This document shows, piece by piece, positions 44,143 to 50,570 of a stretch of 51,873 nt of DNA. Source of the stretch: Specibacter cremeus (GTDB taxonomy: Bacteria > Actinomycetota > Actinomycetes > Actinomycetales > Micrococcaceae); contig NZ_RWKQ01000032.1 in assembly GCF_003946885.1 (NCBI RefSeq), forward strand, positions 1 to 51,873, in the 5' to 3' direction. A program made the position numbers and the translations under genes. Under the pieces are notes generated by a model, which worked only from the letters and a program-made list of their open reading frames with translations, was not told where the DNA came from and did not search any database. Every line of letters starts with the position of its first letter. Positions within the stretch are counted from its first letter, which is position 1.

Positions 44143-45228
44143 GTGGCTCTTACTATTGGCATCGTCGGACTGCCCAACGTCGGCAAATCAACCCTGTTCA
44201 ACGCACTGACCCGCAACAACGTGCTCGCCGCGAACTACCCGTTCGCGACCATCGAGCCCAACGTGGGCGTTGTCAGCCTGCCCGACCCGCGGCTGGAGAA
44301 GCTGGCCGGCGTCTTCGGCTCGGCCCGGATCCTGCCGGCCACGGTGTCGTTCGTGGACATCGCCGGCATCGTCAAGGGCGCCTCCGAGGGCGAGGGCCTG
44401 GGCAACAAGTTCCTGGCCAACATCCGCGAGGCCGAGGCGATCGCCCAGGTCGTCCGCGTGTTCGACGACCCGGACGTGGTCCACGTCGACGGCAAGATTG
44501 ACCCGAGCTCCGACATGGAAACCATCCACACCGAGCTGATCCTGGCCGACCTGCAGACCATCGAGAAGGCCATCCCCCGGATCGAGAAGGCCGTCAAGCT
44601 CAAGCAGCGCGAGGCCGCGGAACTCAACGCCATCAAGGCCGCACAGGCCGTGCTGGAACGCGGCGACACCATCTTCTCCTCGATCAAGAGGGACAAGCTG
44701 GAAATGGAGCACCTGAAGGAGCTGGGCCTGCTGACGGCCAAGCCGTTCATCTACGTGTTCAACGCCGACGATTCCGTGCTCGGCAACCCGGCCCGCCAGG
44801 AGGAGTTGCGTGCCCTCGTGGCGCCGGCCGACGCCGTCTTCCTCGACGCCAAACTGGAGGCCGACCTGGTCGAACTGGACGAGGCCGAGGCCCGGGAGAT
44901 GCTGGAGATGAACGGCCAGGACGAGTCCGGGCTGGACCAGCTGGCCCGCGTCGGGTTCCACACGCTGGGCCTGCAGACCTACCTGACCGCCGGGCCGAAG
45001 GAGACCCGGGCCTGGACGATCCGCCAGGGCGACACCGCCCCGCAGGCCGCCGGCGTCATCCACTCCGACTTCCAGCGCGGCTTCATCAAGGCCGAGGTGG
45101 TCCACTTCGACGACCTCATCCAGGCCGGCTCCATGCACGAGGCCAAGGCCCACGGCAAGGTCCGGATCGAGGGCAAGGACTACGTCATGCAGGACGGTGA
45201 CGTGGTGGAGTTCCGGTTCAATGTGTAG
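44143..45228 (+). CDS. ychF: Redox-regulated ATPase YchF (OBG family)
   Basis: A 361-residue P-loop NTPase. Seen: [18 protein letters not shown] (G1) at residue 5, [11 protein letters not shown] (switch I), [22 protein letters not shown] (G3 and switch II), FNADD-type G4 as YVFNADDSV, and the C-terminal TGS domain ending [14 protein letters not shown]. Family members bind ATP rather than GTP and associate with ribosomes. GTG 44143 matches the family start (VALTIGIVG); a TTG at 44134 is also in frame. Its 3' end is the repeated att-like sequence seen five more times downstream. Confidence 0.95.
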
Positions 45229-45251
45229 TCGAAATCCGGTCAAACGTCTGG
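45199..45251 (+). repeat. ychF 3'-end repeat, copy A (in the intact gene)
   Basis: From the GAC codon of [10 protein letters not shown] through the stop (45226-45228) to CGTCTGG. Copies B-F lie at 46133, 47273, 48153, 49261 and 50468. The 23 bases after the stop match those after copy B with two differences, so the repeat unit extends beyond the coding part. Confidence 0.88.
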
Positions 45252-45281
45252 GAAACCCAACCCATCTGCTGTCACTCTGGG

Positions 45282-45299
45282 CATATCACGCGATATGAT
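45282..45299 (+). promoter_or_regulatory. Promoter/operator of the MntA-HepT module, leaderless
   Basis: Inverted repeat CATATC-ACGC-GATATG (45282-45297) overlaps a -10 box TATGAT (45294-45299). Six bases separate the box from ATG 45306, predicting a leaderless mRNA under autoregulation by the HTH domain of the antitoxin. Confidence 0.75.
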
Positions 45300-45305
45300 C
45301 AGCTC

Positions 45306-45749
45306 ATGGCCAACCTTGTCCGAATGCTTCGTGAGGCTGCTGGCCTCAGTCAGGCAGAGCTAGCCCGACGGTCCGGAGTCGCTCAGCCGAACGTTGCCGC
45401 CTACGAGGCTGGACGGCGCAGGGTCTCGGCCGAGATGCTGGAGCGCCTTCGCGCGGCCGCGCGGCCACTGCCTCACGATGCGCTCGCTGCGCACCGTGCC
45501 GACCTGGTGAGTCTCGCCGGACGCTATGGCCTCAGCAACGTCCGGGTCTTCGGCTCCGTGGCACGCGGCACCGACCGCCCCGGCAGCGATCTGGACGTCC
45601 TCGTTACCCGCTCGCCGGGCACCGGCCTGCTCACGGTTGCGGCGTTCGCTGCAAAAGCGGGGGAGCTGCTCGGCGTCGAGGTCGACGTGGTGACCGACGG
45701 CGGTCTGCGCGCCGACCACGAGATCTTGGCAACGGCCGTCGCGGTATGA
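45306..45749 (+). CDS. mntA: HTH-MNT nucleotidyltransferase antitoxin (MntA type)
   Basis: A 147-residue fusion. Residues 1-50 are an XRE helix-turn-helix (MLREAAGLSQAELARRSGVAQPNVAAYEAGRR in segments); residues 65-147 are a minimal nucleotidyltransferase with the exact GSX10DXD motif (GSVARGTDRPGSDLD) and a third acidic position in EVDVVTD. MntA proteins AMPylate the HEPN toxin HepT and so neutralise it. The stop overlaps the HepT start (ATGA). The HTH probably autoregulates through the palindrome upstream. First module after ychF. Confidence 0.92.
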   Translation: MANLVRMLREAAGLSQAELARRSGVAQPNVAAYEAGRRRVSAEMLERLRAAARPLPHDALAAHRADLVSLAGRYGLSNVRVFGSVARGTDRPGSDLDVLVTRSPGTGLLTVAAFAAKAGELLGVEVDVVTDGGLRADHEILATAVAV

Positions 45750-46084
45750 ACGAGCGGGACGCTGCGGCGCTGAGGGAGATCGTCCGCCTGTGCGGTGTCG
45801 GTGCGAATCTCGTGGCGCGCGGCCATGCGTGGTACCTCGGTGATATCGACAACGTGCCGGGTCTGGCCGCGGAATCGCTGATCATCAAGATCGGTGAGAA
45901 TGTCGCTCGTCTGAGTGCCGACACGACCGACCGGCATCTCGAGGTGCCGTGGTCGCTGATCAAGCGGATGCGGGACCGCTTGGCACATCACTATGAAGGC
46001 ACCGACTATGAGGCGGTCTGGGACACGATGGTCGTCGATCTGCCAACAATCAGCAGGCACGTTCAATCGCTCGAAGCAGAGTGA
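45746..46084 (+). CDS. hepT: HEPN-domain toxin (HepT type, DUF86)
   Basis: A 112-residue HEPN ribonuclease-type toxin. The active motif RX4HXY is seen as RDRLAHHY near residue 78-85, with IGENVARLS and VPWSLIKRMRDRL in the preceding helices. The tyrosine is the residue AMPylated by MntA in known systems. The 4-bp overlap with the MNT antitoxin gene fixes the start and the pairing. Intact in length. Confidence 0.92.
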   Translation: MNERDAAALREIVRLCGVGANLVARGHAWYLGDIDNVPGLAAESLIIKIGENVARLSADTTDRHLEVPWSLIKRMRDRLAHHYEGTDYEAVWDTMVVDLPTISRHVQSLEAE

Positions 46085-49256: not shown

Positions 49257-49260
49257 CGGA

Positions 49261-49290
49261 ACGTGGTGGAGTTCCGCTTCAACGTGTAGT
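49261..49290 (+). repeat. ychF 3'-end repeat, copy E
   Basis: GTG GTG GAG TTC CGC TTC AAC GTG TAG from 49263: V V E F R F N V stop. Identical over 30 bases to copy C (47277-47306). Beyond the stop the bases TCG still agree with ychF, then diverge. Confidence 0.9.
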
Positions 49291-49348
49291 CGTGCGATAA
49301 GACCGCAGCTCGGCGGCCCGTGGTGACCGACCGGCCCGCGACGAACGC

Positions 49349-50326
49349 CTACGTCATTTCCCGTGGCACGGCGATGACGTCCACCGCGGCCCCGGAACGC
49401 AGCACCGTGATGGGAAGGGGCACGCCGATGGCGTCGCTGAACAGCAGCTTTTGCAGGCTCTGGGCGCTCGCGACGGGGCGGCGTCCGGCGCTGAGCACGA
49501 CGTCGCCGGCCTTGAGGCCGGCCTCCTCGGCGGGCGAGCCGGCGATCACCTCGACGGCGCGCAGCGCCTGGCGCTGGCCGGTGCGGTGCGCGACGGCCGG
49601 ACTCAGCGCGACCGGCGTACTGACCACACCGAGATAGGCGCGCCGGACAAGGCCGTCCGACAGCAGCGCGGAGATGATCCGGCGCGTGGTGGCGTTGATG
49701 GGCACGGCCAGGCCAAGCCCGGCCCCCGCGACGGCCGTGTTGATGCCCACCACGCGGCCCCGGGTATCGGCCAGCGCCCCGCCGGAATTGCCGGGGTTGA
49801 GGGCGGCGTCGGTCTGGATCACGTCCTCGATCACCCGTCGTGACCTCCCGGACCGGGTCGGGATGGAGCGCCCCAGGCCGCTGACGACGCCGGCCGTCAC
49901 GGAACCGGCCAGGCCGAGCGGGTTGCCGACGGCAATGACCAACTGGCCGACGCGCAGTGCCTCGGCGTCCCCGAGCGTGGCCGGCGTCGGCGCCGTCGTC
50001 CGGGCGCGGACGATGGCGAGGTCCGACAACGCGTCCGAGCCGATGATGTCCACCTCCGTTCCCGTGCCGTCGGCGAAGCTGGCGCGGCCCGCGTAGGCCC
50101 CGGCCACCACGTGGGCGTTCGTGAGCATGTAGCCGTCCTCGGTGAAGACGACGGCGGAGCCGCTTCCCAACGTGGAGCGTCCGTCGGGGGCGCTGCCCGA
50201 CATCTCGATGGCCGCCACGTGCGGGATGACGGTCTCGGCAACGCGGATGACCGTCTGTGAGTAGGTGTCAAGCGGGTCTTGGGCGTCGGGGGGCTGTTCA
50301 ATGTGCGTGTCGGGGCTGGTGTCCAC
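49349..50326 (-). CDS. Trypsin-like serine protease with PDZ domain (HtrA/DegP-like)
   Basis: A 325-residue S1C protease. Catalytic His in LTNAHVVAG near residue 78, Asp in LSDLAIVRAR near 108, Ser in ALNPGNSGGALAD near 190; a PDZ domain (EAGLKAGDVVLSAGRRPVASAQSL) ends the protein. No signal peptide or membrane helix is seen: the first 25 residues are polar (DTSPDTHIEQPPDAQDPLD), unlike standard HtrA proteins. GTG 50326 with AAGGAGG upstream fixes the start; an open frame further upstream is antisense to the ychF-like copy F and is not real. Only gene on the minus strand in this region. Confidence 0.9.
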   Translation of the reverse strand: MDTSPDTHIEQPPDAQDPLDTYSQTVIRVAETVIPHVAAIEMSGSAPDGRSTLGSGSAVVFTEDGYMLTNAHVVAGAYAGRASFADGTGTEVDIIGSDALSDLAIVRARTTAPTPATLGDAEALRVGQLVIAVGNPLGLAGSVTAGVVSGLGRSIPTRSGRSRRVIEDVIQTDAALNPGNSGGALADTRGRVVGINTAVAGAGLGLAVPINATTRRIISALLSDGLVRRAYLGVVSTPVALSPAVAHRTGQRQALRAVEVIAGSPAEEAGLKAGDVVLSAGRRPVASAQSLQKLLFSDAIGVPLPITVLRSGAAVDVIAVPREMT

Positions 50327-50467
50327 GGCGCACCTCCTTGGGCTGGTACTTGCCTGTACAACGTCCTTGGCCGCGCGACTAATCCGGATCCCGGTACGCC
50401 CTCGGCGAACCGCCGTCGAGCAGGCATCCGCTGGGTGCGGGTTGGACAGCGACGTCCCTGCCATCAC

Positions 50468-50570
50468 CAGGTCGACTCCATGCGCGAGGCCAAGGCGCAA
50501 GGCACGGTTCGGGTCGTGGGCAAGGACCGCGTCATGCAGGATGACGACATCGTCGAGGTCCGATTCAATG
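50468..50570 (+). repeat. ychF 3'-end repeat, copy F (long, degraded)
   Basis: 103 bases aligned without gaps to 45121-45223 of ychF, about 84 identical by hand count. Translated it reads SMREAKAQGTVRV and GKDRVMQDDDIVEVRFN, versus [13 protein letters not shown] and [17 protein letters not shown] in YchF. It has lost the final Val-stop: the ATG of ...TTCAATG leads straight into an internal part of a higB gene. The longest of the extra copies. Confidence 0.9.

Follow-up and report, generated by a model that had tools for sequence, protein, structure and literature searches.

Toxin-antitoxin cassettes in a row at the 3′ end of ychF in Specibacter cremeus, a probable attachment site of phage and satellite large serine integrases

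Staphylococcal cassette chromosome (SCC) elements insert at rlmH, and chains of SCC elements lacking ccr are known. The Enterococcus cassette chromosome (ECC) likewise relies on large serine recombinases and inserts at the 3′ end of a conserved gene (PMC6222049). SCC and ECC are the nearest known systems to the locus described here, a row of toxin-antitoxin cassettes behind ychF in Specibacter cremeus, a soil bacterium of the Micrococcaceae. The row lies on contig NZ_RWKQ01000032.1 of assembly GCF_003946885.1, whose 51,873 nucleotides, read on the forward strand, are called the window below. Probably, the 3′ end of ychF is the attB site of a family of large serine integrases of actinobacterial phages and of satellite-like elements, and the window holds four cassettes that have accumulated there.

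Like SCC and ECC, which use the large serine recombinases Ccr, the ychF arrays occupy the 3′ end of a conserved gene, possess end sites of about 50 bp and variable cargo, seem to depend on large serine recombinases, and leave the end of the target gene restored and direct repeats behind. Unlike them, they target ychF and not rlmH, their integrase family is phage-type and single, and their cassettes are often of 0.5–2 kb (35 of 68 intervals between boundaries); nor is any intact ccrA/ccrB- or ccrC-type recombinase found in the arrays of the 56 loci fetched (55 ychF loci and a ychF fragment from genome G014, 1.01 Mb in total), where one degenerate resolvase piece occurs, in genome G003. Phages and satellites with serine integrases share with the cassettes the core, the left half-site (P) and the attP/attB spacing, but carry an integrase and a true P′ half that alters the YchF tail, whereas the cassettes have neither. 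Integron arrays, too, line up small cassettes, each having a site 3′ to its cargo, and begin with a first site that is fixed; the ychF arrays differ from them in having no integron integrase and in the serine-integrase geometry of their sites. The likely attP of the satellite phage MulchRoom (OQ784832) contains the ychF 3′ end as well, but its integrase is a small tyrosine integrase and its left arm is unrelated to the cassette ends. In the open-access literature, the search results gave no cassette array joined to ychF, the searches on engD and cassette arrays being too broad to exclude one; as a prophage site, ychF appears there for pneumococcus. The MulchRoom paper contains neither “ychF” nor “attB” in its text (PMC10690885), and a survey of Mycobacterium prophages does not contain “ychF” (PMC10654092).

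An earlier note on this DNA described six ychF 3′ ends, A to F, and took the ychF end for an attachment site whose C-terminus is restored by each insertion. Five of the six stand: in-frame copies of VEFRFNV-stop begin at 45205, 46133, 47282, 48153 and 49266, all on the plus strand, and the ychF-end pattern had no match in 100 shuffled versions of the window. In the whole genome (4,313,802 bases) these five are the only matches at ≤2 mismatches, with none for the backwards control, so that the repeats are not scattered and the core is found only behind ychF, in support of an attachment site. Copy F is indeed derived from ychF, as the note had it, but it is a decayed fragment of 104 bp of coding sequence, 82% identical and without the stop codon, and it has no boundary score. 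What the note had missed is a left-hand extension of the ychF-like core, about 27 bp that the cassettes have in common and ychF does not possess. The features are as follows.

44134–45228, plus strand: ychF, with the putative attB-type site A at its 3′ end (core 45205–45228, central GT 45205–45206); AAC[CG]TCT lies at the attB distance in single-copy relatives
45306–46084, plus strand: cassette 1, HTH-MntA antitoxin (45306–45749) and HepT toxin (45746–46084), by Pfam
46102–46156, plus strand: junction B, left half P at about 46102–46131, one extra base, core 46133–46156; P score 21.4 after a one-base shift
46201–46593: open reading frame (ORF) remnant ahead of the RHH/PemK pair of cassette 2; no Pfam hit
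46656–47220, plus strand: cassette 2, RHH antitoxin (46656–46883) and PemK/MazF toxin (46876–47220), by Pfam
47252–47305, plus strand: junction C, left half P and core 47282–47305; P score 20.6
47474–48096, plus strand: cassette 3, VapB (47474–47686) and the PIN toxin VapC (47683–48096), by Pfam
48123–48176, plus strand: junction D, left half P and core 48153–48176; P score 14.9
48210–49256, plus strand: cassette 4, HigB (48210–48491), HigA (48484–48780) and a NUDIX protein (48777–49256), by Pfam
49236–49289, plus strand: junction E, the last boundary in the window, left half P and core 49266–49289; P score 24.3
50467–50570, plus strand: copy F, decayed ychF 3′ fragment followed by truncated HigBA, no boundary; 82% over 104 bp

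The P scores come from a left-half model built without the window copies, and no window position apart from the boundaries exceeds 4.6 on the cassette-end model. Pfam bears out the cargo that had been named from the letters alone (MntA-HepT, MazEF, VapBC and HigBA-Nudix). The window thus has four predicted type II toxin-antitoxin modules, in each of which a toxin and an antitoxin family are paired in one operon.

The 3′ end of a cassette is a site of about 50 bp, whose left half matches the attP of phage and satellite large serine integrases. In 78 inner copies (68 from the 56 loci and 10 from other records), the shared left part of about 27 bp has the consensus ccAgAgGTTg.T..GTGccGgaACGtG, while every position to the right of the stop codon carries ≤0.3 bit. 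All copies found in the 56 loci at ≤3 mismatches are on the ychF strand. A left-half model, trained on the same copies that it finds, gives 61 matches over these loci, 60 of them on the ychF strand and 50 being known copies, and none in the reversed sequence. An exact search of viral contigs with one strict left-half consensus gave no match.

The link to serine integrases comes from viral contigs found through the core. In L114 and L117, the core lies 35 and 44 bp from large serine integrase genes whose products are 65% identical to each other; that of L117 has Resolvase and Recombinase domains. Among 35 loci collected with these two proteins as queries, 14 have an integrase match that starts 25–56 bp from the core; 12 of the 14 are distinct, the seeds L114 and L117 are among them, and a core-like match inside the partial integrase of L148 was left out. 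In these autonomous elements the integrase gene adjoins the site, as it does in no cassette. The nearest integrases of named phages, those of Microbacterium phages SuMoo and Percival, are about 40% identical. The note had proposed a search for integrases that co-occur with occupied sites: six of 295 Micrococcaceae genomes have the integrase (E≤1e-90), and in five of the six it is a serine integrase gene ≤14 kb downstream of ychF. In four of these five, no other gene separates it from the site and it is read towards ychF, with the opposite direction in G166; the match in G173 contains one TGA. Furthermore, the P halves beside integrases beat 99% of shuffles (4.9) in 11 of 13 cases and every ychF half (7.5) in 8 of 13, and P′ halves, when reverse-complemented, score ≥10 in 9 of 11 P′-type ychF ends and in all five attPs. 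Most likely, the recombinase acting on these sites is a large serine integrase.

L144, L176–L179, G001, G025, G035, G037 and G040 encode a different short tail after the VEFR of YchF, in which TS and KK are frequent. Where an element has a true P′, VEFRFNV becomes VEFR followed by, for instance, HGITSAAQGKK or TGLTSGSKK, the TS being apparently a side effect of the attP motif.

The spacing within the sites points the same way. In five viral contigs whose site has no ychF-type right half, the site is a palindrome centred on the GT of GGTNGAG, with an identity of 0.83 at offset 0 and ≤0.33 elsewhere. The motif AAC[CG]TCT, matched with ≤2 mismatches, starts 14 bases from the GT in 23/23 single-copy ychF ends, 26/27 array ychF ends and 74/78 cassette right halves. 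It starts at 19 in 49/78 cassette left halves (four more at 20, and 20 without the motif), in 7/11 P′-type ychF ends and, on each side, in 3/5 attPs. For a serine integrase, the attB motif has been described as lying 5 bp nearer the centre than in attP (PMC3783163). The spacing of 14 in ychF against 19 in the putative attP is a match to this published 5-bp rule. The cassette junctions look like attR-type sites, and ychF retains attB geometry.

This geometry also bears on the possibility that a tyrosine integron integrase moves the cassettes by folded attC sites. The small size of the cassettes, their mainly single orientation, the 3′ site of about 50 bp, the fixed first site and the inverted repeats in the site had suggested it. 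Since the spacing fits serine-integrase attP/attB, the integrase-linked sites of the same type belong to serine integrases, and no tyrosine integrase ORF is found in the 56 loci at E≤1, an integron is very hard to credit here. Alternatively, the cassettes might be inserted, with ychF as attB, by a tyrosine integrase like the one encoded by MulchRoom, a satellite phage of Streptomyces. In MulchRoom and its relatives L115 and L124, the ychF core does adjoin a small tyrosine integrase gene, and the integrases of L115 and MulchRoom are 39% identical. The left arms of these sites, however, do not match the cassette ends (scores −1.7, −2.5 and −23.0); the model that yields no tyrosine integrase in the 56 loci does find MulchRoom; and in 197 family genomes a search for the MulchRoom-type integrase (E≤1e-12), made without a positive control, found none. 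Insertion by such an integrase is therefore improbable, and a tyrosine recombinase as mobiliser was dropped on account of the mismatched left halves and of the cassette-type sites beside serine integrases. L117 carries, in addition to its serine integrase, a 388-aa tyrosine integrase near the core; homologues of it (E≤1e-40, in 8 of 197 family genomes) had no core at ≤3 mismatches in the fetched loci. Apart from the cassettes, a MulchRoom-type tyrosine integrase of about 250 aa appears to use the same ychF 3′ end: the likely attP contains ATGCAGGACGGGGATGTGGTGGAGTTCCGCTTCAACGTGTGA, at 7350–7379 in L118 (integrase 6514–7269), 30–53 in L115 and 2914 in L124.

With the serine-integrase attB at ychF as the preferred reading, the relatives provide both occupied and empty sites. 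The exact core pattern is found in 30 of 58 relatives. At least two boundaries are present in 31 of the 56 loci, or in 26 without forced first boundaries; here 2 mismatches were allowed, and the first boundary was forced at ychF where the tail is altered, in six genomes (G001, G025, G034, G035, G037 and G040). The 68 intervals so delimited run from 548 bp to 13.1 kb, the 35 mentioned above being ≤2 kb. In the Micrococcaceae, 279 of 295 genomes have the core pattern, with none for the backwards control, and 103 of 295, counted by hand and regardless of the position relative to ychF, have at least two exact copies. Within the phylum, the element-type pattern was matched in 5 of 396 genomes, two being from outside the order. 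The record of Nocardia farcinica NCTC11134 also has an array, with three exact copies and one with a single mismatch, four in all. As carriers, plasmids were considered and set aside: a tblastn search with the YchF C-terminus gave 75 plasmid records, and among the matches listed there are mostly whole ychF genes and some records of chromosome size. An unannotated human faecal scaffold filed as phage (L120, MT836021) has a ychF-type core followed by a HigBA-type left end, TAGCGTTAATGAC.

Empty sites, for which the earlier note had proposed to look, are seen in G013 and G017, which have one copy each and nothing inserted behind ychF: a conserved three-gene block starts 138 and 156 bp past the gene. 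In 20 other genomes, the same block starts 0.67–17.9 kb past ychF, and its distance follows the number of intervening copies (Spearman 0.78, p 2e-5, 22 genomes, the nearest match in G010 being a different gene). The sequence past the empty ychF ends is related to that past a distal copy in 10 further genomes (alignment from a cluster of 13). Gene content tracks the boundaries in relatives, and the attachment-site reading thus passed the test that the earlier note had set for it there.

The cassettes also behave as units. The HigBA cassette left end recurs in 11 genomes at 12 boundary positions, which include first, inner and last ones, and its homology begins at the core. A cassette of 1,166 bp is present in seven species with 94.4–99.8% identity, as the first cassette of the row in six of them and the second in the other, and is more similar than ychF in 19 of 21 species pairs; the best alignment of the 500 bp beyond it is 0.52, i.e., the neighbours are unrelated. 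Nine loci were compared for this cassette, picked because seven had a spacing of about 1,166 bp. Empty and occupied sites, together with a 1.17-kb cassette common to seven species with unrelated neighbours, indicate that the cassettes are mobile units. The claim that they were imported, for which differing synonymous codons had been cited, is supported; these differences are real, and the right halves show two styles of codon use that in part distinguish those borne by cassettes from those of the host. Host-type right halves make up 34 of 54 single and last copies against 21 of 64 first and inner copies (p 0.0016). VEFRFNV-stop is intact at 26 of 31 first and 29 of 37 inner boundaries, which supports restoration of the YchF C-terminus, against 17 of 31 last ones (last versus first, p 0.026). 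The lower intactness of last copies is as expected if new cassettes enter beside ychF, though selection on YchF alone would protect the first copy too.

Genes are read in the direction of ychF in 36 of 49 scored ORFs in cassettes ≤2 kb and in 87 of 141 in larger ones. The commonest Pfam families are HTH_3 (12), HTH_19 (10), HigB-like toxin (6) and HTH_31 (6), followed by GmrSD, acetyltransferase and PIN (4 each), E1-E2 ATPase (3) and MerR (2). This tally covers 146 of 236 array ORFs (191 past the score and length filter, 187 of them without X, 146 entered), called by a codon-usage script that missed HigB in the window. PADLOC matches, spread over many overlapping models, were kept out of the counts.

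Could homologous recombination within ychF and the flanking block alone account for the spread of the arrays, the repeats being fossils of old insertions? The flanks are conserved, and cassette bodies can be identical where the core positions at ychF differ, a pattern to be expected of conversion tracts that stop at the core. Nevertheless, in all seven species that have it, the 1.17-kb cassette runs from core to core and the DNA past it is unrelated, HigBA cassettes occupy first, inner and last ranks, and homologous flanks alone do not create such sharp boundaries, so that this account in its pure form is unlikely, if less so than a tyrosine integrase. Homologous recombination may well add to the spread. 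In L183–L189, the synonymous core positions +1, +4 and +10 at ychF differ despite cassette bodies up to 100% identical; a conversion tract in ychF that stops within the core may be the cause.

If the ychF end serves as attB, the parts would fit together as follows. The attP would be a palindrome P-GT-P′, and the ychF end B-GT-B′, in which the motif on the right lies 5 bp closer to the centre. Autonomous elements would sit as B-GT-P′ ... integrase ... P-GT-B′, giving YchF a new short tail. A cassette would have the P half at its 3′ end and, at its 5′ end, a B′-spaced half encoding EFRFNV-stop. Inner junctions would then be of attR type, and ychF would always end in an attB-type site, ready for another insertion; because attB geometry is kept, the site would be reusable. 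That no recombinase is visible in the window, as the earlier note said, extends to the 56 loci: none has an intact integrase, the sole recombinase-like ORF being the resolvase piece of G003. The integrase must therefore act in trans or be gone, and it would be supplied by a visiting phage or satellite.

How cassettes without an integrase move can be sketched with the same parts. Recombination between attL and attR requires a directionality factor. The standard reaction of a serine integrase is attP with attB (PMC3783163). An element X would integrate at attB ahead of the cassettes; excision between its attL and a more distal attR would give a circle with X, one or more cassettes and a complete attP; the circle would integrate at attB in a new host; and X would leave through its own attR, with the cassette remaining. 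The standard rules would suffice if X excises with a distal attR, delivers the cassette and later leaves alone. Granted the rest of the explanation, the chances of this route are about even. In G001, a P′-type ychF end is followed by a 13-kb island and two decayed junctions, and in G040 by a 595-aa ORF and a HigBA-type left end; both look like elements inserted ahead of older cassettes, without the integrase. Circles of attR type may also be exchanged directly, and the varying core before near-identical bodies suggests some contribution of homologous recombination. In its widest form, which we put at a little under an even chance, the proposal is an integron-like platform of serine integrases: attR-ended single-operon cassettes with toxin-antitoxin or anti-phage genes would collect at a self-regenerating ychF attB, moved from one actinobacterial species to another by the integrases of visiting phages or satellites, so that relatives of phages would build the anti-phage repertoire of the host.

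Several observations weigh against a serine-integrase attB with cassettes moved in this way. Recombination itself is deduced from sequence comparison. The predicted intermediate, an integrase-bearing element ahead of EFRFNV-type cassettes, was not found behind the five integrase-bearing loci: in the stretches covered, which for G656 and G173 are the 10-kb flanks of L142 and L145 with one site, the core does not recur past them. The genome of the window has no integrase of the L114/L117 family at E≤1e-90, and the ychF-type core is missing in 21 of the 35 integrase loci, five of which have the palindromic attP. G004 (3.4 kb), G007 (0.67 kb) and G008 (0.74 kb) hold extra DNA with one boundary only, and 15 of the 78 inner copies score <3 on the left-half model in a leave-one-out test. 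As for the geometry, the 7-bp motif AAC[CG]TCT was picked after inspection of the data; the palindrome test at the junctions is weak, its identity of 0.41 at offset +5 being reached by 18 of 300 column permutations; and with the ychF ends the offsets +3 and +5 score alike, at 0.42. Finally, core positions vary ahead of cassette bodies that are 99.7–100% identical, which a single crossover point does not explain.

If the proposal is true, many actinobacteria would have a chromosomal cassette platform, as the 103 Micrococcaceae genomes with at least two exact cores suggest, and since the rows contain no integrase, searches for islands by their integrases would miss it. The ychF end would be one constant place in which to look for small defence and toxin-antitoxin modules, and a route by which they accumulate on chromosomes. 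It would also offer a natural experiment on the half-sites and directionality of serine integrases, and a ready integration site for genetic tools.

Some further features of the window are given here. The ORF at 46201–46593, formerly called AbiF-like, loses that label, having no Pfam hit; by eye, its start resembles a 272-aa ORF in a cassette of G016. The left end of cassette 3 is common to G004, G016 and G022. Between E and F, the protease named in the earlier note does have Trypsin_2 and PDZ domains and is present, among the 56 loci, in the window only; its status as a cassette is not demonstrated, the segment having no second boundary. A second VapBC pair lies beyond F at the contig end (51253–51825), where a recognisable boundary was not seen. 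Fragments of the ychF 3′ end away from ychF, followed by a truncated HigB, occur in the window (50467–51050, about 34 codons) and in L041, contig 2 of G014 (about 93 codons). The G014 fragment corresponds to YchF residues 272–364 with the core intact, on a 384-kb contig. The displaced fragments look as if a ychF end and the first cassette had moved jointly.

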